Assembly (NCBI RefSeq): GCF_036711975.1
Contig: NC_091975.1
Span: 2,854,501-2,918,500, forward strand
Direction: 5' to 3'
DNA: 64,000 nucleotides
From: Onthophagus taurus
Taxonomy: Eukaryota > Arthropoda > Insecta > Coleoptera > Scarabaeidae
Each line of letters starts with the position of its first letter. The stretch's first letter is position 1. Positions 38,150-57,575 of the stretch are shown here, piece by piece. Below the pieces are notes generated by a model. It was not told the origin of the DNA, did no database searches, and worked only from the letters and a program-made list of their open reading frames with translations. The position numbers and the translations under genes were made by a program.

Positions 38150-38494
38150 TTTAGTTCTTAAGTTGCAATAAATGAGGATTTGATGCACTCAGGAAACTTT
38201 AAATTTGATACCATCTATCCTCAAACATTAAAGTTAAACACACAAAATCTTTATGTATCAGTTCCAAACCGGTTTAAAAAATGTTCACATATTTTTACTT
38301 TCAAAAAACGTTGAAATCGATGATTATATATTTTTTGTAACATAACCGTTCAAGCTGGAAACCTAAAATTTGGCACAACCAAACCTAAAACAGTCTTTTA
38401 TAACCTCAAAATTGTTTTGTTTTGCAATTTTAATCCATTTCGGAGAAAAAAAAGTTTTTCTTCAATGATGTTTTTAAGAACTGTTAACATTACG
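38150..38494. repeat. Satellite-like array, left of the Polinton
   Basis: Contains CGTTCAAGCTGGAAACCTAA, ATTTGGCACAACC, CAGTCTTTTATAACCTCAAA and CAATTTTAATCCATTTCGGA, all found again at 53,940-54,060 to the right of the Polinton. The array is cut at the duplicated ATTACG. Monomers are about 165-175 bp. It is the same broad family as the array at 56.8-57.6 kb. Confidence 0.8.
38489..38494. other. Left target-site duplication of the Polinton
   Basis: ATTACG immediately precedes the AG terminus and is identical to 53,742-53,747. Six base pairs is the usual Polinton duplication length. Confidence 0.95.
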
Positions 38495-38907
38495 AGTAGT
38501 ATAAGAAGGAGAGTTCTGGAGCAGGATTATCCCATATTTTGCGCTCTGTGATTGGTTGAAATGCCAATATGGCGGTCAAAAATTTAGTAACTTTTAGGGA
38601 TTTTCATTTTACATGTTGGCAATGAATCTCAATTATGTTGGTACTACTGAGGGTGGAGGGAATGCAAATTTTTTTAATATAAATAAAAGTAGGGTGACCG
38701 TCAATATATAAAAATTACGATTAATGATTTGTGCTACAATTAGGACTAAGTGTGTGAAAGTGAAAGGAGAATTAAAAAAAAAAACAACAAACGTTACAGT
38801 GAACTTGTATTTTAAAGGTGAGTAATATACATTGAAATGAAGCGTGTTAAATTTAAAGAAGATTTAGATGTGTATTATATTGATGAAGACCAATATAGCA
38901 AAAATGC
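38495..38907 (+). repeat. Left terminal inverted repeat of the Polinton
   Basis: 413 bp matching the reverse complement of 53,328-53,741 with substitutions only at about 38,730 (T/C) and 38,891 (C/G) and a one-base difference in an A-run. Holds a TATATAAAAA box at 38,705-38,714, a consensus splice donor (AAAG/GTGAGT) at 38,818, and the start of an ORF at 38,837. Inward transcription from both ends is therefore plausible. Confidence 0.95.
38705..38823 (+). promoter_or_regulatory. Candidate inward promoter and leader donor in the TIR
   Basis: TATATAAAAA lies about 130 bp before the TIR ORF start. GTGAGT at 38,818-38,823 after AAAG fits a 5' splice site. A matching acceptor (TTTTAG, 39,111-39,116) ends three bases before the ATG of the 222-aa ORF. 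The same box and donor are mirrored in the right TIR. Function is inferred. Confidence 0.4.
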
Positions 38908-38926
38908 ACTCGGTGAACGTCAATAA
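38837..38926 (+). pseudogene. Truncated TIR copy of the PPP1R15-like terminal ORF (29 aa)
   Basis: The first 24 codons duplicate the right-end gene (one difference, E to Q at residue 19) because they lie inside the TIR. The TIR ends there, and the frame runs a few unrelated codons to TAA at 38,924. It keeps the RVKF docking motif and the following hydrophobic pair but lacks the Trp/Arg-rich helix, so it could bind PP1 at most. It may equally be an untranslated by-product of TIR extension into the gene. Confidence 0.6.
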
Positions 38927-39000: not shown

Positions 39001-39118
39001 ATAATTTTCGCTCTGCGTATTGGTGAGAGAGACAGTATATAACGTATATAAAGGTGAATGTAAATGTTGTAACGAGAACCAATCGATTAACAGATAGCTC
39101 CATATTAAACTTTTAGAA

Positions 39119-39844: not shown

Positions 39845-40783
39845 TTATACAAAATCTGATTTTTTAATCCAACTTCTTTCATCCATTCCAAACCACTTAA
39901 CGTACATTCGATTTCCTTTTCGTTTCAATACTTTTTCAATTAACTGTATGTCAGGATAGTGTGTACGTTGTAGTTCTTCACTATAGAAAGCACCTTTAAT
40001 ATCTTCACCTTTCAAGTCCTGTAATAAATACGATACTGGATTGGTGTACTGAATCTTAACAATTTTAAAAACTTCATTACTCCAGTTAGGAGTGTACCCT
40101 TTGGCAAATATTCCACGATGTTTAGAAATTCTCACAAAATCATTTAAGTGAAACTTTTGTTTTTTTAATGCGATTGTTTTCATTCGATTATAAACAGTAT
40201 CCAGTAATCTTTTTTCAGTATTATTATTATTATTATTATTCACTTCTATCGGTTTCATACCTATAGTTGAATGTTTATGTGAATTGTATATTAATAGTAT
40301 CTGTGGTAATAACTTTAACCATTTAAAAGATCCTTGAATGCTAAATTCTTTCCACATTAAACCTTTTAAAGTTCTATTCAAACGTTCAACAACAGATGCT
40401 TTCAATGAGCTAAACGTCGAGTAATGATTAATTTTTAACTTACTCATAAGCAAGCTAAATTCTTTGTTATAAAACTCTTTTCCTAGATCAGTTTGAAGAT
40501 TTTTTGGTACATATCGGTCCTTTAGAATACTTTTCATTGCTTTAGTAACATCTTTACCCGATTTAGTTTTTACAGGAACAGCCCATGCATATTTGCTAAA
40601 GACATCAATTACAACGAGTATATAACGATAACCATTGTTTTGTCGTGCATAAGGTATCATCTCTACTAAATCAGCCTGGTATAAATCATTTATCCCTTTA
40701 ACAATTACATGTCGCCTTTTGAAATGTATTCGAGCAGGTTTATGAAGTTCTTCAACTATTTTTCTTTTAACATCACTGGACAT
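39845..40783 (-). CDS. Polinton retroviral-type integrase (rve)
   Basis: Catalyses insertion of the excised or replicated element, producing the 6 bp duplication. The 312-aa protein has a DDE core: D38 in QADLVEM, D99 in QTDLGKEF and E133 in VVERLNRTLK. Flanking blocks (YILVVIDVFSKYAWAVPVK) are typical of Polinton and retroviral integrases. An Asn run (seven residues, from an ATT repeat) near 188-194 lies between the core and a C-terminal SH3-like/chromodomain-like part. The last 35 residues (IEKVLKRKGNRMYVKWFG) fit a chromodomain, which could guide target choice. The start overlaps the upstream ORF by 28 bp. No breaks; probably functional. Confidence 0.95.
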   Translation of the reverse strand: MSSDVKRKIVEELHKPARIHFKRRHVIVKGINDLYQADLVEMIPYARQNNGYRYILVVIDVFSKYAWAVPVKTKSGKDVTKAMKSILKDRYVPKNLQTDLGKEFYNKEFSLLMSKLKINHYSTFSSLKASVVERLNRTLKGLMWKEFSIQGSFKWLKLLPQILLIYNSHKHSTIGMKPIEVNNNNNNNTEKRLLDTVYNRMKTIALKKQKFHLNDFVRISKHRGIFAKGYTPNWSNEVFKIVKIQYTNPVSYLLQDLKGEDIKGAFYSEELQRTHYPDIQLIEKVLKRKGNRMYVKWFGMDERSWIKKSDFV

Positions 40784-42420: not shown

Positions 42421-42795
42421 TTATCGGTTGTAACACCGATACTTTTTTTTCGGATTCTTCAAACCGAAACCCAATTTTCGTTTTACTTTCATTGCGTTAG
42501 TAACAAACCATGCGTTAGCTTTTTCACCAAAAGATGAATCTTTCGCTAATACTCTTTTCCATGCTTCTTCGGCTAATACTTTATCTGCTTTATGTCGATT
42601 GTGTAAATCTGTGTATTGTGTATATGCTAAATCATGACGTTTACATGCTCTATCAAGCTTATTAATACCAGGATCTCCACGTGCTAATCGTTTCATGAGA
42701 TTTGTCCCAGGTCCACAAAACTGATAGCCGGGCAAATGCAGCTCTCCACCTGTTCGTATCACTAACATGACTGATATAGAAACATACACAATCAC
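42421..42795 (-). CDS. Phospholipase A2-like protein (parvovirus VP1-type domain)
   Basis: 124 aa. A hydrophobic N terminus (residues 2-13) precedes a calcium-loop-like YQFCGPGT (24-31) and the catalytic His-Asp pair in ACKRHDLAY (H54, D55). This is the layout of the short secreted-type PLA2 domain of parvovirus capsid proteins, also reported in Polintons and adintoviruses. The C-terminal half is basic (VKRKLGFGLKNPKKKYR). In viruses the enzyme helps particles leave endosomes; that role here is inference. It overlaps the ATPase stop region by 4 bp (ATGA-type), implying co-transcription. Key residues are intact. Confidence 0.92.
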   Translation of the reverse strand: MIVYVSISVMLVIRTGGELHLPGYQFCGPGTNLMKRLARGDPGINKLDRACKRHDLAYTQYTDLHNRHKADKVLAEEAWKRVLAKDSSFGEKANAWFVTNAMKVKRKLGFGLKNPKKKYRCYNR

Positions 42796-43484
42796 AATTT
42801 TATATAGTAATGAAATCCATTACGATATCTACCATCATTCATATCGTCCTCCTTATTGATTACAAAAAATCCGAATCTATCTTTCCAACACATTGCACAC
42901 ATTTTCTTAAAAACATTGAATTTCATATCGGTTGTTACGTGATCATTATAAATATGTCTTAAATTTAGGTCATCTTGTTTGAAAAGTATTAAAAAGTTTG
43001 CATTATCACGTATTAAATGTTTTGGAATATGTGTGTAACTCTGACATAAATAAAAACTATCTATTGCCTTATGTCGTCCCATACAGAAATAATCACGAAT
43101 AATTGACTGTTTATCGCATGCTACATCATCAAATATAAAAACTGAATCTTCATTTGCTTTAGAGGGATGCATTATGTCATCACTACTGCTATACTCATAA
43201 TATCCTAAACCTTTTATAGGCTGCAGCAATTTTCTCAAATATTCATATTTGTTTTGATACAATGACTTTGAATACACATACACATTTTTAAATGATATTC
43301 CATTAGGATCCTGTAATAAACTAATTATCAGATTTGTTTTACCAGAGCTAGAAGGTCCGGATATTATGCAACGTAAATTATTTGGAAATAAATAACTATG
43401 CTTTCTGTTTTGAGGTGATTGATTGTTAAATTGTATTGTTACATCATCAACATCTAATGTGTAAGGTTGTTTTATCACTTTCAT
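42792..43484 (-). CDS. FtsK/HerA-type genome-packaging ATPase
   Basis: Powers loading of the genome into capsids. 230 aa with Walker A GPSSSGKT at 43-50, Walker B VFIFDDV at about 115-121 (acidic pair D119-D120), and a downstream arginine-containing helix region (IPKHLIRDNANF). Length fits the 210-260 aa norm for Polinton and adenovirus-like ATPases. It is first in the minus-strand unit and starts 82 bp from the divergent core-protein gene. No damage seen. Confidence 0.95.
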   Translation of the reverse strand: MKVIKQPYTLDVDDVTIQFNNQSPQNRKHSYLFPNNLRCIISGPSSSGKTNLIISLLQDPNGISFKNVYVYSKSLYQNKYEYLRKLLQPIKGLGYYEYSSSDDIMHPSKANEDSVFIFDDVACDKQSIIRDYFCMGRHKAIDSFYLCQSYTHIPKHLIRDNANFLILFKQDDLNLRHIYNDHVTTDMKFNVFKKMCAMCWKDRFGFFVINKEDDMNDGRYRNGFHYYIKL

Positions 43485-44027: not shown

Positions 44028-44366
44028 TTGATACGTTATGTAAAAATGTTGGGGATACCAGAGTTTAGAGGGATATTCATGCAAGATAAATTACCTCTGC
44101 GTATTAATAATAATGAAAGAGGTATTATTAACTTGGATAGTGTGAAAGGACCTGGCACTCATTGGACAGCCTATATTAAGAAAGGAAATATAATTAATTA
44201 TTTTGATAGTTTTGGTAATTTAAAACCAAGTAAAAAAATTGTAAACTATTTTAAGAGTGCTGGAAATAATGTAATTATTAAATACAATCACAATCAATAT
44301 CAAACCTATAACACAAGTAATTGTGGTTATTTATGTTTAAATTTCTTATCATCAAACACATTATAG
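44028..44366 (+). CDS. Adenain-like cysteine protease (maturation protease)
   Basis: Cleaves virion precursor proteins. The first in-frame ATG is at 44,046; counting from it, the triad is H39 (GTHWTAY), D54 (YFDSFGN) and C93 (NTSNCGYLC), with Q86 as a possible oxyanion-hole residue. The given start is a TTG; no ATG precedes the conserved N-terminal residues (LTNVDLIRYVK), which lie in the same open frame back to 43,947. The ATG form would lack part of the normal N terminus. That suggests the protease is made as an extension of the core protein by -1 frameshifting, or that a one-base indel split a single gene. It is short at the C terminus for the family, but the catalytic set is complete. Confidence 0.88.
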   Translation: MIRYVKMLGIPEFRGIFMQDKLPLRINNNERGIINLDSVKGPGTHWTAYIKKGNIINYFDSFGNLKPSKKIVNYFKSAGNNVIIKYNHNQYQTYNTSNCGYLCLNFLSSNTL

Positions 44367-45233: not shown

Positions 45234-46436
45234 ATGAGCATCTTAAGCGTTTCGGACAAGCTTGAATTTGATAATTCACTTGTGAGGCTTCAGTATCATA
45301 ATCATTTACCTTACTCATCAAATTCGTTTAACAATAGTGATGAAATACGTATTGCAATCCAACAACAGGACATTTACACATTACCAAGCCAATCGTTTAT
45401 TTACGTACAAGGGAAACTATTGAAAGGTGATGGAACCGTTGATAAAGATGCAAAATTAACAGTAAATCCAGTCGCTCATATGTTTAGTGAAATACGATTT
45501 GAATGTGGAGGTAATGTAATTGATAGAGTTAGAAATCCAGGAATAGCTAGCACATTAAAAAATCTTTGTTCGTTAACAAGGTCTGAATACTATCATTCTT
45601 CTAACGCTGGTTTTGAATATTTAAACATTAAGATAAATGAAACTACAGGTGATTTTGATTTTTGTGTTCCCTTGAAATACTTTCTTGGTTTTGCTGAAGA
45701 CTATAATAAAATCCTGATAAATCTACGTCAAGAATTGGTGTTAGTACGCAGTAATTCAGATAATAATGTCATTGAATGTCCTACACCTAATATGAAGATT
45801 ATTATTAATAAAATTGTGTGGAAGGTACCACACGTGTCGGTGGCTGATGTAGAACGATTGAAACTTTTAGAGCATATAGAACAAGGAATTGAATTATATA
45901 TGGGATTTCGTTCATTTGATTTACATGAGTATCCATCATTACCAAAAAGTAAACAGCACTCATGGACAATTAAAACATCTACACAATTGGAAAAACCTCG
46001 TTACTTAATATTAGGATTTCAAACCAATAGAAAAGATGATGCAAAAGTTTCAGCATCTCTATTTGATCATTGTAATTTAACAGATATGAAAGTGTTCTTA
46101 AATAGTGAAAAATATCCCTATGAACCATTACATTTAAATTTTAAAACTGGTCAAATTGCAGTTTTATATGAAATGTATTGTAACTTTGCAAAGTCCTATT
46201 ACGATCGAGAGCTTGCAGAACCAATGTTTAACAGAGACACATTTTTAGCAAATACACCGATTATTGTTATTGATTGTTCACGACAAAATGATATTTTAAA
46301 TGTTGGAACCGTTGATATTCGCATTGAATTTGAAACGAGCGAAGATATACCTAATAATACTACCCTTTACTGTTTAATCTTGCATGATCGTGTTTTCAAA
46401 TATGTTCCTCTAACTGGTATGATTAATCAAATATAG
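45234..46436 (+). CDS. Major capsid protein (double jelly roll, hexon-like)
   Basis: 400 aa. Builds the capsid facets as trimers in the family model. Landmarks: SDKLEFDNSLVRLQYHNHLPY at the N terminus (a conserved mixed-charge opening), IQQQDIYTLPSQSFIYVQG, an HMFSEIRFECGGNVIDRVRNPG core block, and the C-terminal NTTLYCLILHDRVFKYVPL. The two halves fit two jelly rolls. An AAT trinucleotide run (45,217-45,234) abuts the start codon. A degenerate second copy of the C-terminal coding segment follows the stop (46,450-46,520). The ORF is intact. Confidence 0.92.
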   Translation: MSILSVSDKLEFDNSLVRLQYHNHLPYSSNSFNNSDEIRIAIQQQDIYTLPSQSFIYVQGKLLKGDGTVDKDAKLTVNPVAHMFSEIRFECGGNVIDRVRNPGIASTLKNLCSLTRSEYYHSSNAGFEYLNIKINETTGDFDFCVPLKYFLGFAEDYNKILINLRQELVLVRSNSDNNVIECPTPNMKIIINKIVWKVPHVSVADVERLKLLEHIEQGIELYMGFRSFDLHEYPSLPKSKQHSWTIKTSTQLEKPRYLILGFQTNRKDDAKVSASLFDHCNLTDMKVFLNSEKYPYEPLHLNFKTGQIAVLYEMYCNFAKSYYDRELAEPMFNRDTFLANTPIIVIDCSRQNDILNVGTVDIRIEFETSEDIPNNTTLYCLILHDRVFKYVPLTGMINQI

Positions 46437-48460: not shown

Positions 48461-51400
48461 ATGTTTTCTTGTGAAAAATGTCAACAAGTGTTTTCATTAA
48501 AATGCAATTTGAATCGACATATGCGTAATAAGCATTGTGTCGGACTGCAACTCATATGCTCAATATGTCAAAAAAAATTCAGGCGACAAGATGCCTTTGT
48601 TCAACATCAGAGAAGTATCCATGGTATTGAACCTCAACGAAAAGATCCACTACCAAATTTAATACAAAATTCAACACATCGAGATTTCGATGAATCAGCA
48701 GCAAGTACGTCAGCTTCGAAAAGTAAGATTAAATTAACAAATAAACTATGTGACGTATGTGGAAAGTTCTTCTCATCTCACGCAACCCTTGCGGCACATC
48801 TTCGATCAGAACACATAACATCTATCGAAAAGGATGTTGAGCAAGTATCAACGTGTTACAAAAATCGTGTTGCCTGCTATAAAATTGGGGGAGTTGAAGC
48901 CGACGATGATATTCCATCATACCTCACAAGATCCCGAGAAACGGTTCGTAGACTTATAAACAATTATATTAGTGATATTAGAGGATTAGTTAAAGCTCAA
49001 ATTGAACTATTGGCTGTTTTTATAAAATCCAGCTTTAATGAAAACGGTGAAGAGGGAGTGATAGCCTCCATGAAGAATTTCAATACAAAATTTAAAGTAA
49101 TTACGTCTATAACCTTCGAGGAAATTTACGATAAGATGATTAGAGATATTATAAAACAGAGTGAGGATTTCCAGGAGCAAGGTTCTGGATGGGCTTTCTT
49201 CTCCGTATCACACCTTTTGCTTAACGTTAACAAATTCCAACCAATACCTGGATCATCATATATTCGTTTACCTTCGGAAATTATTAATAAAAAAGCCTGT
49301 ATCAATATAAAGAATAATGATAACGCTTGTTTTGCATGGTGTTTGACGGCGGCTCTTCATCCCGCTCAAATAAGTAAGGTTCGTACTTCAAGCTATCCTC
49401 ATTACTCTCAAGTGCTAAATTTAGAAGGTATAACGTTTCCCGTTCATTTAAAAGATATATCCAAAATAGAAACTTTAAATAATTTAAGTATTAACGTTTA
49501 CGAATTAGTTTTTGATTCCATTAATTATACCTACAATGTGGAAGGACCCATTCATTTTACTAAAAATAGACGAGATACACATGTGAATTTATTATATTTA
49601 TTTAATAATGGAATAGGGCATTTTGTTTTAATCAAAAATTTATCACGACTTATTTCTAAGCATATAGCAAATCATAACGGCGCAATACGTCTTTGCGACG
49701 GGTGTTTAACTCGGTTTTCATCTGCCGACAAATTATCTAGACATCAACAATACGATTGCAACCATATAACGACCATTTTACCATCGAAGAATTTAAAATC
49801 AATACCCAATTTTATGGGAAATTTAATGCCGGAAAATATTTTGGAATTTAATAATTATAAAAATACTCAAATGGTTCCATTTGTTATTTACGCTGATTTT
49901 GAATCAATTTTAAAACCAATCGAGCATTGTGAACCCGATTTCTCCAAGTCTTTTACAGAAAAAGTTGACATACATCAACCATACAGTTTTGCATACTATA
50001 TCGTTTCTACTGTAGATGGTACTTGTTGTAAATTTGAAACCTATACCGGCCTCGACTGTCCCAAAGTTTTCATTTTAAAATTAATGGAAGATGTTAGATA
50101 TATTTATCACAAATATATAAAATATGTAAAACCCATGACCCCCTTAACTGTTGAAGAACAAGTTGCATTTGAAGCAACATACATTTGTCACATCTGTAAA
50201 ACACCTTTTGGAGAAGATGTAGTTAAGGTGCATGATCATTGTCATATAACTGGTAAATATAGGGGCCCAGCCCATGTTGTATGTAATCTTAACTTTAAAA
50301 TTCCCAAATTTATCCCTGTATTCCTACATAATTTCAGCTGTTATGATGCACATTTATTTGTTAAAGAGATGGCTGACATTGAGGATGTCAATGGTATTGA
50401 TGTTTTACCTAATAATAAAGAAAAATATATAAGTTTCAGTAAAAGCGTGCTAGTTGATCAGATACAGAATCAATCCCGTTTTGAAAATCGGTTCATGAAA
50501 TTACGTTTTTTGGATTCATTTCGATTTATGGCATCCTCACTCGATTCATTGTCGAGTAATCTTGTAGAGGAGGATTTCGTTCATGTACGAAAATTTTTCC
50601 CATGTAATAAGCAATTTCAATTATTAAAGAGAAAGGGTATATTTCCCTATGGCTATATAGATTCACTTGAAAAATTAAGTGAAACATCATTACCACAAAT
50701 ATCTGGGTTTTTTAACAAATTAAGTTTTGAAAATATAACTGATAAAGATTATTTACACGCTCAAACAGTTTGGCAAACATTTCAGTGTCAAAATTTAAAA
50801 GATTACTCTGACCTATACCTCAAGACCGATGTTCTTTTGTTAGCAGATGTTTTTGAAAAATTTAGACGCGTTTGTTTTGAAACTTATGGATTGGACCCAG
50901 CACATTATTACACCACACCAGGACTCACTTGGGATGCAATGTTAAAATTTACAAAAATTAAACTTGAATTATTGACTGATGTAGATCAAGTCCATTTCAT
51001 TAAAAAAGGCATTCGTGGGGGTATTTCGCAGTGCTCATTACGTCATGCTAAAGCTAATAATAAATATATGGATAATTATGACTCCAATTCTCCTTCGAAA
51101 TTTCTAATGTATTGGGACGCTAACAATTTGTATGGTTGGGCAATGTCACAACCGATGCCCTATGGAGACTTTAAATGGTTAGATGATACTGAAATTCAAA
51201 ATTTAAATTTGAATCATGTATCCGATGAAGCTGATTATGGTTACATTTTGGATGTTGATATTGAATATCCTCATTATTTACACGATATACACAATGATCT
51301 ACCTTTTCTCGCAGAAAACATATGTCCTCCCAACAGCAGTAACAGTGAGAGCGAGAAAAGATTAATTCCAAATTTATTTAACAAGAAAAATTATATTGTT

Positions 51401-52408
51401 CATTATAGAAATTTAAAGCACGCTATAGCTCACGGTCTCAAAGTTTTGAAAGTAAATAGAGTTTTATCCTTTAAACAATCTGCGTGGTTGAAACCTTATA
51501 TTGATATGAACACAAAATTACGTCAATCCGCTAAAAATGATTTTGAAAGAGACTTTTTTAAACTAATGAATAATTCGGTATTTGGAAAGACGATGGAAAA
51601 CGTGGATAAAAGAGTTGATGTTCGGTTAATTACAAGTTGGGATGACATTTGCGGAAAAGGTAGGTCAAAACCCGGAGCTCGCAGTCTAATCGCTAAGTTA
51701 AATTTTAAAAATATTAAGATTTTTACTGAAACATTTTCGGCAATTCAAATGGAGCGACTTCGTGTTGTTTACAACAAACCTATATACGTTGGTTTTACAG
51801 TTTTAGAAATTTCAAAATTGTTAATGTATGAATTCTATTATAATTTTTTAAAACCTAAATATAATGAAGCAATTCGATTGTGTTATATGGATACGGACAG
51901 CTTCACTGTACATATTAACACCGATGACCTATATGAAGATATTAAATTAAATTTAGATAAATTTGACACCTCGAATTACCATCTGGATAATCAATTTAAG
52001 ATCCCGCTTAAAAATAAAGCCGTATTAGGTCTTATGAAAGATGAGAATTGCGGTAGAATTATGACGGACTTTATAGGGTTACGATCGAAAATGTATGCAA
52101 ATCGTGTTATTGATGGTCGTGTTACAAAAAAAGCTAAAGGTGTAAAAAAAGCTGTTGTGAAACATAAAATTAAATTTGAAAATTATTTCGATTGTTTAAC
52201 TTTGAAAAACACTATGTTTGCAAAACAAATTTTATTTAGAAGTTGTAATCACACCGTATACACGGTATTACAAAATAAATTGGTCCTTTCACCGTACGAT
52301 GCCAAGAGATTTATTAAAGATGATGGTATAGATACGTTAGCTTGGGGTCATAACCGTATTGTTAGTAGTAGTAGTAGTGAGGGTACATTACAAACTCTTA
52401 AACCTTAA
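48461..52408 (+). CDS. Protein-primed family B DNA polymerase with N-terminal zinc fingers
   Basis: Replicates the element from its ends. The open frame begins at a TTG at 48,422; the ATG at 48,461 (AAGAAAATG) is the better start, giving 1,315 aa. N terminus: C2H2 fingers at about 4-25, 33-54 and 96-118, plus a finger-like CDGC...H near 411-433. Exonuclease motifs: YADFES near 478, NFSCYDAHLF near 627, DLYLKTD near 788. A CHIC...HDHCH...CN zinc knuckle near 575-607 resembles recombination endonuclease VII. Polymerase motifs: YWDANNLYG near 883, KLMNNSVFGKT near 1033, YMDTDS near 1142, then RSKMY. All catalytic residues are present. It ends in a Ser-rich tail. Unusually long and finger-rich, but within the Polinton range. 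Confidence 0.95.
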   Translation: MFSCEKCQQVFSLKCNLNRHMRNKHCVGLQLICSICQKKFRRQDAFVQHQRSIHGIEPQRKDPLPNLIQNSTHRDFDESAASTSASKSKIKLTNKLCDVCGKFFSSHATLAAHLRSEHITSIEKDVEQVSTCYKNRVACYKIGGVEADDDIPSYLTRSRETVRRLINNYISDIRGLVKAQIELLAVFIKSSFNENGEEGVIASMKNFNTKFKVITSITFEEIYDKMIRDIIKQSEDFQEQGSGWAFFSVSHLLLNVNKFQPIPGSSYIRLPSEIINKKACINIKNNDNACFAWCLTAALHPAQISKVRTSSYPHYSQVLNLEGITFPVHLKDISKIETLNNLSINVYELVFDSINYTYNVEGPIHFTKNRRDTHVNLLYLFNNGIGHFVLIKNLSRLISKHIANHNGAIRLCDGCLTRFSSADKLSRHQQYDCNHITTILPSKNLKSIPNFMGNLMPENILEFNNYKNTQMVPFVIYADFESILKPIEHCEPDFSKSFTEKVDIHQPYSFAYYIVSTVDGTCCKFETYTGLDCPKVFILKLMEDVRYIYHKYIKYVKPMTPLTVEEQVAFEATYICHICKTPFGEDVVKVHDHCHITGKYRGPAHVVCNLNFKIPKFIPVFLHNFSCYDAHLFVKEMADIEDVNGIDVLPNNKEKYISFSKSVLVDQIQNQSRFENRFMKLRFLDSFRFMASSLDSLSSNLVEEDFVHVRKFFPCNKQFQLLKRKGIFPYGYIDSLEKLSETSLPQISGFFNKLSFENITDKDYLHAQTVWQTFQCQNLKDYSDLYLKTDVLLLADVFEKFRRVCFETYGLDPAHYYTTPGLTWDAMLKFTKIKLELLTDVDQVHFIKKGIRGGISQCSLRHAKANNKYMDNYDSNSPSKFLMYWDANNLYGWAMSQPMPYGDFKWLDDTEIQNLNLNHVSDEADYGYILDVDIEYPHYLHDIHNDLPFLAENICPPNSSNSESEKRLIPNLFNKKNYIVHYRNLKHAIAHGLKVLKVNRVLSFKQSAWLKPYIDMNTKLRQSAKNDFERDFFKLMNNSVFGKTMENVDKRVDVRLITSWDDICGKGRSKPGARSLIAKLNFKNIKIFTETFSAIQMERLRVVYNKPIYVGFTVLEISKLLMYEFYYNFLKPKYNEAIRLCYMDTDSFTVHINTDDLYEDIKLNLDKFDTSNYHLDNQFKIPLKNKAVLGLMKDENCGRIMTDFIGLRSKMYANRVIDGRVTKKAKGVKKAVVKHKIKFENYFDCLTLKNTMFAKQILFRSCNHTVYTVLQNKLVLSPYDAKRFIKDDGIDTLAWGHNRIVSSSSSEGTLQTLKP

Positions 52409-52441: not shown

Positions 52442-53170
52442 ATGGAGTGTAGTTTGTTTATAATTCAAAGTGATTTCTATAGAAAGTTGGAGCATACCTA
52501 CTTCTATCATTTAAGAAACTTTATCAAAGAAAATAATCTTGATGGTGTTAATACCATATTGGAAAAAATAATTATCCCAAACCAGATTTTAACATATCGA
52601 AATCTACACCTAGCTTCTGTTGAAATTTTAGAAGTAATTCTTAATGAAAAACTCAATTTTGATCATGTTGTTAAGCAATTATTAGAATCGCTTAATTGTT
52701 ACGAGCGAAACAACAACAATGAATTGAAGGTTAAAGATCTAGAATCACTGACTAGTAACGTAAGTATTAAATTTACTGATGAAATGTATAAAAAATATTT
52801 ATTAACTAATTTATTCGCTGATAACGAAGGAATTGTTTCTATTAATAATCTTATATGTAAATACCGTAATTTACGTTATTATTGTGATAAATTGATTTGC
52901 GATGCATTGTATTGTGCAGACAATGAATTTGTAAAAAGATGTATACAAGTTTTCAAAGCACTCAACTATGAATTTAACTTTGAGCCGCTGTCGCGAATAT
53001 CACACCAGAATATAATGGCATGGTTAATAAACAACATGAGAAATGGAGCTAAAGGGAAACCAGTTGGATGGCAATCCGGTCCTGATTCGGCACATTGGCC
53101 CTCTACAAACACACAAGATTATGTAGATGTTTTAAACCTAATAGAACCATACATAAGATTACATATTTAA
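52442..53170 (+). CDS. Orphan Polinton protein, 242 aa, helical
   Basis: No family recognised. Mostly helical by composition, with repeated 20-30-residue hydrophobic blocks (NLHLASVEILEVILNEK, LICDALYCADNEFVKRC) that loosely suggest an ankyrin-like or HEAT-like repeat. The C-terminal part (GKPVGWQSGPDSAHWPS) differs and looks exposed. LNCYE at 84-88 fits an LxCxE retinoblastoma-binding motif. It lies 33 bp after the polymerase and converges with the terminal 64-aa ORF, an accessory-gene position. Intact. Confidence 0.75.
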   Translation: MECSLFIIQSDFYRKLEHTYFYHLRNFIKENNLDGVNTILEKIIIPNQILTYRNLHLASVEILEVILNEKLNFDHVVKQLLESLNCYERNNNNELKVKDLESLTSNVSIKFTDEMYKKYLLTNLFADNEGIVSINNLICKYRNLRYYCDKLICDALYCADNEFVKRCIQVFKALNYEFNFEPLSRISHQNIMAWLINNMRNGAKGKPVGWQSGPDSAHWPSTNTQDYVDVLNLIEPYIRLHI

Positions 53171-53208
53171 ATAAATAATATATTAAATACCATTTAAAGT
53201 GTTTTATT
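53168..53208. terminator. Convergent polyadenylation signals, right
   Basis: AATAAA at 53,170-53,175 overlaps the stop of the 242-aa ORF. TTTATT at 53,203-53,208 overlaps the stop of the minus-strand 64-aa ORF, giving AATAAA on that strand. Compact convergent ends like those at 39.8 kb. Confidence 0.5.
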
Positions 53209-53398
53209 TATTTAATTTCTCATTTTTCTTACGTAATATTTCATACAATAATTTTTCAGTTTCTTCAATACGTCTCTTAAAACGATACCTATCTGCAGCT
53301 GCTTGCAACCATTCCGATCCGTTTCTAGCATTTTTGCTATATTCGTCTTCATCAATATAATACACATCTAAATCTTCTTTAAATTTAACACGCTTCAT
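53204..53398 (-). CDS. PPP1R15/GADD34-like PP1 regulatory protein, 64 aa
   Basis: Residues 3-6 are RVKF, a canonical RVxF PP1-docking motif, with a hydrophobic YYI at 13-15 in the position of the second docking site. After an acidic linker come W30 and A35-D36-R37-x-R39-F40-x-R42-R43-I44, leading into a charged helix (ETEKLL). This order and spacing is the conserved core of PPP1R15 proteins, which join PP1 to eIF2alpha (with actin) and reverse stress-induced translational arrest. Herpesvirus ICP34.5 and African swine fever virus DP71L are known viral members. The start lies in the right TIR, so its promoter is duplicated at the other end. Assignment is by eye; function is inferred. Confidence 0.75.
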   Translation of the reverse strand: MKRVKFKEDLDVYYIDEDEYSKNARNGSEWLQAAADRYRFKRRIEETEKLLYEILRKKNEKLNK

Positions 53399-53741
53399 TT
53401 CAATGTATATTACTCACCTTTAAAATACAAGTTCACTGTAACGTTTGTTGTTTTTTTTTTTTAATTCTCCTTTCACTTTCACACACTTAGTCCTAATTGT
53501 AGCACGAATCATTAATCGTAATTTTTATATATTGACGGTCACCCTACTTTTATTTATATTAAAAAAATTTGCATTCCCTCCACCCTCAGTAGTACCAACA
53601 TAATTGAGATTCATTGCCAACATGTAAAATGAAAATCCCTAAAAGTTACTAAATTTTTGACCGCCATATTGGCATTTCAACCAATCACAGAGCGCAAAAT
53701 ATGGGATAATCCTGCTCCAGAACTCTCCTTCTTATACTACT
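53328..53741 (-). repeat. Right terminal inverted repeat of the Polinton
   Basis: 414 bp, reverse complement of 38,495-38,907 apart from two substitutions and one extra base in the A/T-run near 53,451. It ends ACTACT at 53,741. It contains the first 24 codons and upstream region of the PPP1R15-like gene, including the mirrored TATA box and splice donor. Confidence 0.95.
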
Positions 53742-53747
53742 ATTACG
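53742..53747. other. Right target-site duplication of the Polinton
   Basis: ATTACG directly follows the CT terminus and equals 38,489-38,494. Removing the element and one copy joins two parts of a monomer: AAGAACTGTTAAC then ATTACGTAGAAATTTTT, comparable to AGAACTGTTACATAGAAATT at 54,074. Confidence 0.95.
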
Positions 53748-54190
53748 TAGAAATTTTTATCAAAAAAGCTGCTCATGGGAAAAACTTTAAATATGGTATA
53801 ATGTAACTTAAAACATTTATCTGTAAACACAAAAAGTTTTATGTCTCAGTTCCAAACCGTTTTAGAGAACTAAATTTTCACATAATTTTAGTTTCAAAGA
53901 ACGTTTAAATTGATGATTTTAAAATTATTTTGTAACAAAACCGTTCAAGCTAGAAACTTAAAATTTGGCACAACCAACTCTCAACCAGTCTTTTATAACC
54001 TCAAAATTGTTTTACTTTGCAATTTCAATCCATTTCGGAGAAAAGAAAGTTTTTCTTCAACGTTGTTTCTTAGAACTGTTACATAGAAATTTTTATTAAA
54101 AAAACTGTTCATTAAAATTTCAAATTTGGTAAAGTTTCAAATATTAATTTCAAACCGTTTTGTTAAAAAAGATAATTTGTTCTAATACTT
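53748..54190. repeat. Satellite-like array, right of the Polinton
   Basis: Monomer heads at about 53,769 (GCTGCTCATGGGAAAAACTT), 53,939 (ACCGTTCAAGCTAGAAACTT) and 54,102 (AACTGTTCATTAAAATTTCA) give spacings of 170 and 163 bp. Shares CAGTTCCAAACCG, GGCACAACCAA and CAGTCTTTTATAACCTCAAA with the left flank. Diverged copies. Confidence 0.8.
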
Positions 54191-56809
54191 TTATTGACAC
54201 AAAATCAATTTATAAAAAGACGTAGAAATGTCATAAAAAAAATTGCATTAGATAAATAAAATGCAGCTGTCGTCGTTATGATGAGCTTAAAAATTGAAAA
54301 ATGTGTATCGTTAAGGCTTCGTTAATACCCTTAAATTCAGCCGATATAAAATAACCTTTGACGGTTATTCGCCGCGGTTGATTTAGAGATTTTAGAGAGC
54401 TTTTCGGATTTCGCACGTTTCGAAACAATTTAATCGCGCAGCGCTCAAGCGAGCTACGGATGTTCACGTTAATCCATTTCGCGATCAAAAACCGAACGCA
54501 TAAAAGGAGATTTACACACATTTTTTGTATCAGTATTTATTAAATTAAAATCGAATTAAATCTATATACGTAGAATAATACATCGTTTAGTTTTGTTGTT
54601 ATGAAATGTAAAACAATGTATTAAACGTTTTGAAACCGCGTTGTATTTATCCATTTGGTATTTAAATGTATTCCACGAATTGTAAAATATTTTAAACAAG
54701 TCTGCAGGTTCATATCCATTTTTCATACATGCATCGGATGCCTCGACGTGTAATTATAGACAAAAGTTTCGAATATTTCTACTATTTGCGTACATTAACG
54801 TGATGTATAATGGGTAAAATACATCTACATGTGTAATATGGAAATAAACATCGAGTCATGTTGCCAAATCGTCTGTCACTAGAAACTATCTCGTCGTGAT
54901 TTATTGAAACATCAAACTTCAAACTCGGTGAATGTTTAGCATGATGACTTTATAATCAGTTGAGTACAACACAAGGTGATACAAAGCACGTGTAAGCTGA
55001 GTGTAATTACGTGGGGTATTTTAATCGTCACTAAACTATCCGCTCGTGTGCTAGTGTTATTACGGTCCGTTGGGAATCCGCCTATGCATATTTGCGGTGT
55101 GTGTTGTAATTCCATTTTAGCCGCCTGGCTCATCCAGGGATATTAAGGAAACATAAAAAAAAATCTCCGTCAATGTTTACGGGATAAAGCGAATAATCGC
55201 TAGGTTTTAACCCGGCATTAACGTTCCGTTTCGTAATGCGAAATGTGAAAATTCGCGTTCGTTGTACTCCCCCGTGGTTCTACGTTTGTTTGTGAAGTAA
55301 TCTATCAAATTGTCACAAGTCTGATGCTTGTTTTCCTCGAACATGAACGGCTTCCGTTTCTCGAAAACTTTAAATATTTGCTTTTGCCATTATGCCGGCA
55401 CGATAGCAGCGACGCGATATCATCGCAAATCCATCCATCATAAATTTCGAGCGGTATTTTCCCACTTAATTCAGATTATCGACAGCAAATATACAATATT
55501 GCACGATGTAATTTTCGATTATTTATGATATTTCAACACGCGCAATATAAAAATGTTTATAATATTGGCGAAATAAACATTTTAGTGTAGTTTAGTGGTG
55601 ATTTCAATAAAGTAAAATCGATAGGATAATAAAATAAAATCATGTAATCTTGTTGAAGTGTGTAATGTGGGGAATCGTTGAAGATGGAAGAATGTCGTAA
55701 GCGAAATCGTTCGGTTATTATTTTACGGCTGCATTAACTTAACGAGTATTACATTTTTTACGAGCTGTCATTAAGATTTAAGGTGCGAGGATAAATTGTG
55801 AAAGCGTCGTTACGGGCGGCGATAAACCGTTCGTTGGGTTTATTGCGACTGGAGGAGAACCGCCCTGGGGGGCTATGGTCGCGAGTTTCTCTATTTGCAT
55901 GTTTATGGAAGCCGCACTGAATAATCGGCCAATAAACGCCCTGTTTTTTTTTTCAGTTTGTGCTGCGGCTCGCTAATAATCCGATTGCATGACTTTCAAC
56001 GGTAGCCCCCAACGTTACTTTGCGCTTGGGAAGATTGATTCTCCAACTCGCTACGCTAATATTTATCGCCCGACAGTTTGCATGTTCTATTGTACACACA
56101 GGTTTATTTATTTCCTGTCGCCGTTCGACTTGATAGCTTTCGAACGACTCTATTATTCATGCTTTGTTTTTTACGGTTAAACTCGTTTTACGATGACGAG
56201 AGATTACTTGTTGGAAAACGACGCAAATTCCATTTCCCCACCAATCTCGATTTATTTAGATTTCATTACCACAAACAATTCTCATTTGAATATATCGAAA
56301 TCCCCCATCAAATTTTAATAACGCATTTCAAAGAGACCGTCACGGAAACGTTTTCTTTCGTCCTTTGAATACAAAATACCACTCGGTTCTAAAAGAGAAC
56401 GCCATATTTTAAATGTAAATGGCCATGCCTAAAAGAATAATTCGACGCCAAAGATCGCTCGACTACCAGCTTATTAATATTAATAACTGTCTGAATTTAA
56501 CGCGACAGTAAACGATCGGATTTGCATAGTTCGATCGTTGTTGCCGAACATTATGGTTAATTTACGACCGATCGTCCGTTAACCAATTTACGCAAACTAT
56601 CTGTTTCAATAAAATTTGATCACGAGGTACTACAGTTACATTTATTGGGTGATTACCATTTTCAAATTCATAGCGATTCAAAGTTAAATAAAATTATCCA
56701 TCGAATTATTTTCGAGCGGATACGAAACAAATACAGTATCGTAGAAACATTATGAGAAAGTTGAGTGTAGGCCATTTCACTTTATCGATGGTATATAAAA
56801 ATGTCACTC
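54191..56809. other. Gene-free DNA with candidate regulatory blocks
   Basis: GC-richer blocks at about 54,240-54,540, 54,760-55,560, 55,680-56,180 and 56,380-56,620. ORFs (up to 96 codons at 56,078-56,368) show no domains. The rest is AT-rich spacer. Confidence 0.4.
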
Positions 56810-57575
56810 CAGTTAGCTAGCTTATAAAATACTAAATAAAATCGGCGATTTTTAAAACTTTATATAAAATAAATTAGTTATCCTGGAAGCTTATAATTTG
56901 GTACAACCTAACCTTAAACAGTCCTTTATAACCTCAAAAAGTTTCGTTTATTAACTTTAAGCTGTTTTCAAGAAATCAATTTTTATTTTCAATCACATTT
57001 CCAACATCTGTTAAATAAAATCGTTGATATTTAATGTTTTATATAAAATAAATTGATCAACCTGGAAGCTTATAATTTGGTACAATCTAACCTCAAATAC
57101 TCCTTTATAACCTCAAAAAGTTTCATTTCTTAATTTCTACACGTTTTGAAAAACTCAACTTTTATCTTCAGCCTCATTTCCAACATCTGTTAAATAAAAT
57201 CGTTAATTTTTTAAATTTTATATAAAATAAATAATTAACTCTGGAAGCTTATAATTTCGTATAATCTAACCTCAAATGCTTCTTTATAACCTGAAAAAGT
57301 TTCATTTCTTAACATCAAACCGTTTTGAAGAAAACATTTTTATCTATAACATCATTTACTACATACATTGAATAAAATCGTTGATATTTAATGTTTTATA
57401 TAAAACAAATTGGTCAACCGGGAAGATTATAATTTGGTACAATCTAACCTCAAACACTCCTTTATATCCTCAAAAAGTTTCATTTCTTAATTCCTAAAGG
57501 TATTGGAGAAAATAATTTTTTTCTTTAGCCATACTTAACTAACGTCAAATCCGTTACTTTTTATTGTTTTGTATG
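56810..57575. repeat. Tandem array, ~179 bp monomers, about 4 copies
   Basis: GGAAGCTTATAATTTGGTAC heads lie at 56,885, 57,064, 57,243 (variant) and 57,421 (variant), spaced 178-179 bp. Each is followed by AACCTCAAA...CTCCTTTATAACC, AAAAGTTTCATTT and TTAAATAAAATCGTT. The core resembles the Polinton-flank monomer (GGAAACCTAAAATTTGGCAC, CAGTCTTTTATAACCTCAAA), so the two arrays are probably one family. Confidence 0.85.

Follow-up and report, generated by a model that had tools for sequence, protein, structure and literature searches.

A 64-aa open reading frame (ORF) inside a Polinton in the genome of Onthophagus taurus encodes a protein that sequence comparisons show to be homologous to PPP1R15 (GADD34). 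It is probably a minimal viral PPP1R15, that is, a PP1-targeting subunit that would cause eIF2alpha to be dephosphorylated so that translation continues; we infer this function from the relationship. The ORF is on the minus strand of the window, by which we mean the whole 64-kb stretch of DNA analyzed.

53204..53398, minus strand: PPP1R15-like ORF, 64 aa plus stop, with RVKF at residues 3-6, YYI at 13-15, W30, and DRYRFKRRI at 36-44

An earlier sequence-only reading had described these motifs in a 64-aa ORF, and all of them were found at the positions it gave. Over the same interval the plus strand, in the matching phase, is interrupted by stops.

When the window protein (P0001) was compared with Pfam, the top of four families listed was PF10488, the PP1-binding core of PPP1R15 (E = 2.7e-5), with a score of 24.4 bits, below the curated cut-off of 26.1. 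For phmmer and profile searches of the PDB we used a set of 177,635 distinct sequences. With E values up to 10, P0001 had only four matches in this set, all PPP1R15-type: ASFV DP71L (E = 1.2e-5), two PPP1R15B constructs (E = 8.3e-4 and 9.1e-4), and a PPP1R15A fusion (E = 0.18). The AlphaFold model of P0001, built from three sequences, has a single helix over residues 28-63, with block mean pLDDT values of 85, 94, 93, and 82 from residue 31; residues 1-16 are below 50, and the overall mean is 70.4. Foldseek with this model gave 0 matches.

Residues 25-44 of P0001 fit the eIF2alpha-binding motif Rx[Gnl]x1-2Wxxx[Arlv]x[Dn][Rg]xRFxx[Rlvk][Ivc] of Rojas et al. 2015, as quoted in a passage of PMC5346070. 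This motif occurs once in the six frames of the window, at P0001, and not at all in 150 Markov-1 random windows. The spacing of the key residues in P0001 (F6 to W30, 24; W30 to F40, 10; F40 to R43, 3) is identical to that of F558, W582, F592, and R595 in human PPP1R15A, according to the numbering in passages of PMC10743859 and PMC8500838, where F592 and R595 are said to contact actin. Y13 and I15 are at +7 and +9 from F6, which is the spacing of the phi-phi docking site of PPP1R15B, where Y650 and I652 follow F643 (numbering from a passage of PMC4394352). The distal segment (human R612, in RARA at 612-615) is missing: P0001 stops at residue 64, and by plain counting its position 60 is a Glu. 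Families A and B, described below, are both without this segment, and families C, D, D2, and E and the database protein P0009 match the PF10488 profile through to positions 227-229. ASFV DP71L also has no RARA, according to a passage of PMC5346070, so RARA is not required of viral members. At the level of sequence, then, the assignment of the ORF to the PPP1R15/GADD34 architecture in the earlier reading is supported by the PF10488 match, the DP71L and PPP1R15B matches, and the human spacing. A profile match to PPP1R15, which that reading had set as a test, is significant both for P0001 and for the four-family profile given below.

We infer that the protein binds PP1, actin, and eIF2alpha, that dephosphorylation follows, and that the element benefits. 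The ORF would be the bare core, about 60 residues, of a regulatory subunit of the eIF2alpha phosphatase. The flexible N terminus (RVKF, then Y13/I15) would dock the PP1 catalytic subunit, and the helix from W30 on would bind G-actin and eIF2alpha, with F40 and R43 in the places of human F592 and R595. PP1 would be steered to phospho-eIF2alpha, Ser51 would be dephosphorylated, and translation would continue in a stressed cell while the capsid and polymerase of the Polinton are produced. Since PKR belongs to vertebrates, the more probable targets in an invertebrate would be kinases of the PERK or GCN2 type.

The ORF is carried by a 15.2-kb element (element A) with the following features.

38489..38494: left target-site duplication (TSD), ATTACG
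38495..38907: left terminal inverted repeat (TIR), 413 bp, from repeat alignment
38837..38926, plus strand: left-end stub of the PPP1R15-like gene, 29 aa, with RVKF and YYI kept and without W and RF..RRI (by eye, and from left-end tblastn matches to residues 1-26)
39845..40783, minus strand: integrase (PF00665, Pfam E = 1.9e-13)
42421..42768, minus strand: phospholipase A2 (PLA2)-like (PF08398, Pfam E = 4e-15)
42792..43484, minus strand: A32-type packaging ATPase (PF04665, Pfam E = 6.8e-9)
44046..44366, plus strand: probable cysteine protease, weak Peptidase_C48 match (Pfam E = 0.0028, below cut-off)
45234..46436, plus strand: double jelly-roll (DJR) major capsid protein (PF21738, Pfam E = 1.2e-110)
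48461..52408, plus strand: probable PolB, 1315 aa, with C2H2 fingers, a weak endonuclease VII match, and a YMDTDS motif
52442..53170, plus strand: 242-aa ORF convergent with the PPP1R15-like gene, no family match
53203..53208, minus strand: AATAAA overlapping the stop codon of the PPP1R15-like ORF (pattern match; putative function)
53328..53741: right TIR, 414 bp, containing the ORF start and upstream region, from repeat alignment
53412..53419, minus strand: AGGTGAGT, splice-donor-like, lying 14-21 nt before the ATG and mirrored at 38816-38823 (pattern match; putative function)
53524..53531, minus strand: TATATAAA, TATA-like box in front of the ORF, with a mirror copy in the left repeat at 38705 (pattern match; putative function)
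53742..53747: right TSD, ATTACG

By its TSDs, TIRs, and genes the element is a Polinton, the carrier that had been named from the sequence alone. It has in common with Polinton/Maverick elements the 6-bp TSD, TIRs starting with AG, the integrase, the A32-type ATPase, and the DJR capsid protein; the PF00665, PF04665, and PF21738 matches are all above their cut-offs. The 1315-aa ORF had no PolB match in Pfam up to an E value of 0.1. The two TIRs are 99.3% identical over 414 aligned columns, with one gap. The PPP1R15-like ORF begins 344 nt from the right end of the element and reads inward. Its codons 1-23 (53328-53398) and its upstream region are within the right TIR, so the gene spans the inner edge of the repeat, and the left repeat begins the same gene too. 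An acceptor-like CTTTTAG at 39110-39116 is directly before the ATG (39119) of a 222-aa ORF; together with AGGTGAGT in both repeats, it suggests that the left repeat may give this ORF a 5' exon, with the PPP1R15 stub inside the intron. Repeated DNA on both sides of the element (38194-38486 and 53782-54081) is related to a tandem repeat of about 179 bp downstream (56800-57530), and thus element A seems to be inserted in satellite-like DNA.

Searches of the O. taurus genome gave about 200 related matches, cut and broken copies counted in, which fall into seven families (A, B, C, C2, D, D2, and E), each with at least one Polinton-type locus; most of the matches have no internal stop. The 77 tblastn matches to P0001 were sorted manually into family A (15), family B (41), family C (7), family D (2), and left-end stubs or pieces (12). 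Twelve of the 15 family A matches were at 95-100% over full length, and family B was at 39-52%. A genome search with PF10488 gave 88 matches, six of them above the cut-off and all six in family C. Sixty-nine of the 88 were new beyond the tblastn set, and 63 were sorted as family E, mostly from frame length and score. With family D as the query there were 142 matches; 76 were counted as D and most others as E. Family D2 is one locus (L074), and family C2 is two loci read (L091 and L092).

PF10488 was the top Pfam family for all six families scanned (A, 2.7e-5; B, 0.032; C, 2.6e-6; D, 0.028; D2, 2.4e-4; E, 5.9e-5). Fusion family C passes the curated cut-off, at 27.7-28.1 bits, and B, D, D2, and E are below it. 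When a profile of families A, B, C, and D was run against the PDB set, the seven best matches were DP71L (6.2e-11), PPP1R15B (2.3e-8), PPP1R15A (7.2e-8), and then four further PPP1R15 constructs, all of them DP71L, PPP1R15B, or PPP1R15A; unrelated matches appeared from an E value of 0.69. A profile without family C still gave DP71L (1.8e-9) and PPP1R15B (2.5e-5). Of the single families, B matched DP71L (9.2e-7; its weaker PDB matches were mostly designed armadillo repeats), D matched DP71L (0.038), and E matched PPP1R15B (0.0064) and DP71L (0.01).

Beyond the genome, a protein search of 5.8 billion sequences with P0001 gave no candidate with three shared words, and P0001 alone had no homologue among viral contigs or among phages. 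The protein search with family C returned P0006 and P0007, and the alignment search returned P0008, a D-family fragment, and P0009, a 75-aa PPP1R15-like database protein on a 19.6-kb contig (PF10488, E = 6.7e-5). Scans of viral contigs with family C, with an eight-row alignment, and with P0009 gave no confirmed relative. In an NCBIfam scan of five proteins, the only matches were bacterial and sub-threshold, for two of the five.

A seven-row alignment of six families from the O. taurus genome and one database protein amounts to a natural collection of PPP1R15 cores, all very short and divergent (22-50% identity to the window protein), that reveals which residues vary and which are fixed. V4, W30, D36, R39, F40, R43, I44, and L55 are invariant, and comparison with PPP1R15 shows that most of the presumed contact residues, including F40 and R43, are conserved. 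The conservation that the sequence-only reading had set as a test, at R3-F6, W30, and R37-I44, was found in part: V4, W30, and the R39, F40, R43, and I44 positions stand, R3, F6, and R37 vary, and neither this test nor that of the profile match refuted the reading. The RVxF position reads RVKF in the window, SVRF in B, KVKF in C, CVKF in C2, KVTF in D, KVRF in D2, and KVRI in E. The DR of the window reads DN in D2 and DG in four of the six D loci read, and single copies deviate at L012 (CIKF and ER), L040 (DG), and L041 (DTERF). The strict eIF2alpha motif was present at 11 of 12 loci in A and 30 of 31 in B, and at none in C (0/7), C2 (0/2), D (0/6), D2 (0/1), or E (0/8, the eight fetched loci that the motif search in this family covered). 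A shorter W...RF..RI form was present in C (7/7), C2 (2/2), D (6/6), and E (6/8), and not in D2 (0/1).

The families differ in their surroundings. Family B has seven facing pairs 8.6-9.0 kb apart, with the gene within inverted matching sequence; the identity is 99.4-100% over about 1.25 kb in five pairs and 98.9-99.6% in two pieces in another, and the pair L027/L028 has only a 260-nt match (98.1%). Families D, D2, and E adjoin a PLA2-like gene, which was recognized with Pfam in D and from similarity in D2 and E. The family C protein (221-222 aa) is a PPP1R15 core followed by a second domain, and C2 is the same fusion, with 108 of 216 residues identical, downstream of a capsid 3' end (by eye). 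In these two families (L046-L052, L091, and L092) the second domain, about 160 aa (MASRNPIKIIDMQGF...), is fused behind the core. It had no Pfam match in family C, and the AlphaFold model of the family C fusion was poor (mean pLDDT, 39.7). An ORF similar to this domain is present in E elements (L073 4256-4777), and a piece resembling it by eye is at the right end of a B element (L028 3-272). At L047 the family C gene comes after a DJR capsid gene (E = 3.3e-99) and a 271-aa ORF; L050 has instead a PolB-like piece nearby, and L051 has a transposase-like ORF by eye. The family C search gave further relatives outside the family sorting (C11:10904839, C11:10846049, C8:20770203, C11:4393412, and C3:14992841), and C15:5757491 is a match from the PF10488 search, also outside the sorting.

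The TTAGG repeat pattern, used as a marker of the host clade, had two overlapping matches at a single internal position, too little for an assignment. Neither the PF10488 nor the family C search gave a clear candidate for O. taurus's own PPP1R15 gene; an intron-split core would escape these searches. Three candidates were rejected: L093 reads as a C relative that is broken, L094 as a cut E copy, and the 222-aa frame at C6:27726039 as an E copy to which an ORF upstream of it has been joined.

The pattern of divergence shows, within the limits of sequence comparison, selection on the protein. Between families A and B, 32 of the 64 residues are identical, at a pN of 0.314 and a pS of 0.731. In a neutral simulation of this pair with 75 differences, 32 shared residues were never reached in 20,000 trials (mean, 19.2; maximum, 30), and a stop was gained in 99.3% of trials. 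Silent change was also faster per site in the pairs C-C2, D-D2, D-E, and D2-E (pN, 0.30-0.35, versus pS, 0.63-0.78), although silent divergence is near saturation and so the ratios are rough. Distant family pairs had no silent excess, e.g., A-D2 (pS, 0.53; pN, 0.52). Family B adjoins an rve integrase (L018 240-1163) that is 83% identical to the window integrase (dS, 0.61; dN, 0.07), whereas the PPP1R15-like proteins of A and B are 50% identical (dS, 2.76; dN, 0.41). That the integrases are far less diverged suggests, as far as one short gene can tell, that the PPP1R15-like gene may have been exchanged between lineages or may have a different history.

We scored 126 of 332 first-look candidate DJR capsid genes in the 291-Mb genome, grouped by open-frame length. 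Before family D was added, 83 of the 126 had a PPP1R15-like match within 12 kb. The fractions were 8 of 9 in the 405-407-aa group (one of the nine being beside an E-type gene and not in an A element), 20 of 22 in two B groups, and 50 of 53 in the 420-aa (E) group. In the 444-aa group the number rose from 3 to 33 of 35 once D was added, and one more gene elsewhere gained a match. When both counts were joined by hand, 115 of the 126 capsid genes had a match within 12 kb, of which at least two, at C2:28955904 and C11:10350498, were probably matched via a neighboring element. The expectation for random points was about 1.2% before D and slightly higher after (about 1-2%), with the clustering of elements ignored. 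Since 11 capsid genes had no match, including both in the 426-aa group, carriage is common, not universal. No inner stop was found in 123 of the 126 scored capsid genes, and many had identical scores; several Polinton lineages have thus recently expanded.

Three other explanations have to be weighed against a minimal PPP1R15. The sequence is short, the helix is charged, and the single-sequence scores are modest, so one could suppose a chance or convergent helix with an RVxF and no relation to PPP1R15. We consider this barely credible given that PF10488 ranks first in every family scanned, that only DP71L, PPP1R15B, and PPP1R15A are among the seven best of 177,635 PDB sequences for the four-family profile, and that the eIF2alpha motif is absent from the random windows. 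Mobile elements commonly capture host genes, and the ORF could also be a captured fragment that rides along without function. Such a passenger is very improbable, though somewhat less so than chance: pS is 0.73-0.78 and pN 0.31-0.35 for A-B, C-C2, and D-E, as many residues were kept in none of the 20,000 neutral simulations, most matches are without an inner stop, and most scored capsid genes are accompanied.

The remaining alternative, which is unlikely but deserves more weight than these two, is a PP1-docking protein of PPP1R15 descent that does not act on eIF2alpha but redirects PP1 to a different substrate or titrates either PP1 or actin. In favor of this reading, RVxF and the second hydrophobic site both belong to the generic elements of PP1 docking, families A and B have no distal segment, and the left-end stub retains only the PP1-docking half. 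However, it is the non-generic half that is better conserved, with W30, D36, R39, F40, R43, I44, and L55 invariant in all seven rows versus only V4 in the docking motif, and this half is the part assigned to actin and eIF2alpha in passages of PMC8500838 and PMC5346070. A PPP1R15 acting on eIF2alpha is therefore the reading that we prefer.

Among known systems, ASFV DP71L is like the Polinton ORF in being a stand-alone core (PDB chain of 71 residues) without RARA, and it was the best PDB match of P0001, P0003, P0004, and both profiles and the second best for P0010. It is distant in sequence and comes from Asfarvirus, which is not an integrating element; unlike DP71L, the Polinton gene starts inside a terminal repeat. 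HSV-1 ICP34.5 is a longer protein with further functions. It is likened here by description, as a herpesvirus protein with the same core according to passages of PMC8500838 and PMC5346070. PPP1R15A/GADD34 and PPP1R15B/CReP (PF10488) share the order of the core motifs with the Polinton ORF, but the mammalian proteins exceed 600 aa and have further N-terminal regions, whereas the Polinton ORF is core only; a passage of PMC10998612, the source for these sizes, terms a PPP1R15 core of about 70 residues necessary and sufficient. Among viruses, ASFV and herpesviruses are known to carry PPP1R15 genes, according to parts of PMC5346070, PMC8500838, and PMC4394352. A baculovirus PPP1R15 gene, said in one sentence of a review (PMC5704228) to be most likely of lepidopteran origin, is a further PPP1R15 gene in an insect virus, in this case a large free double-stranded DNA virus. 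In the same review, "Polinton" and "protein phosphatase 1" occur in unrelated sentences. The same two terms occur together in PMC13390420, and PMC3654919, on butterfly oogenesis, contains both "Maverick" and "eIF2". No description of a PPP1R15-like cargo gene in a Polinton/Maverick was found in the titles, abstract starts, and passages of open-licence papers that the search covered; within that scope the gene is new for Polintons, several lineages of which carry it, some in the terminal repeats and some in fused form.

The find bears on the question of how far animal Polintons still act like viruses and how far they are mainly transposons. A conserved gene best known for lifting the translational arrest of cells under stress or infection argues that there is a protein-making phase against which the cell defends itself, and a GADD34-like gene in several element lineages of one genome suggests that such elements must overcome a cellular stress response. 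We propose tentatively, and with some doubt, that reversal of eIF2alpha phosphorylation may be a standard counter-defence of animal Polintons, in the form of a fast-diverging PPP1R15 cassette that most multi-copy lineages scored have kept, that has been swapped between lineages, and that lies next to capsid genes or within terminal repeats, in some cases joined to a second domain. If this is true, Polintons have a productive, virus-like phase that is sensed by stress kinases.

Element A also has a deletion copy of 1657 bp (L001 1156-2812). This copy retains the two repeat ends, is flanked on both sides by GGTATT, and carries the PPP1R15-like ORF intact; it is a possible non-autonomous form.
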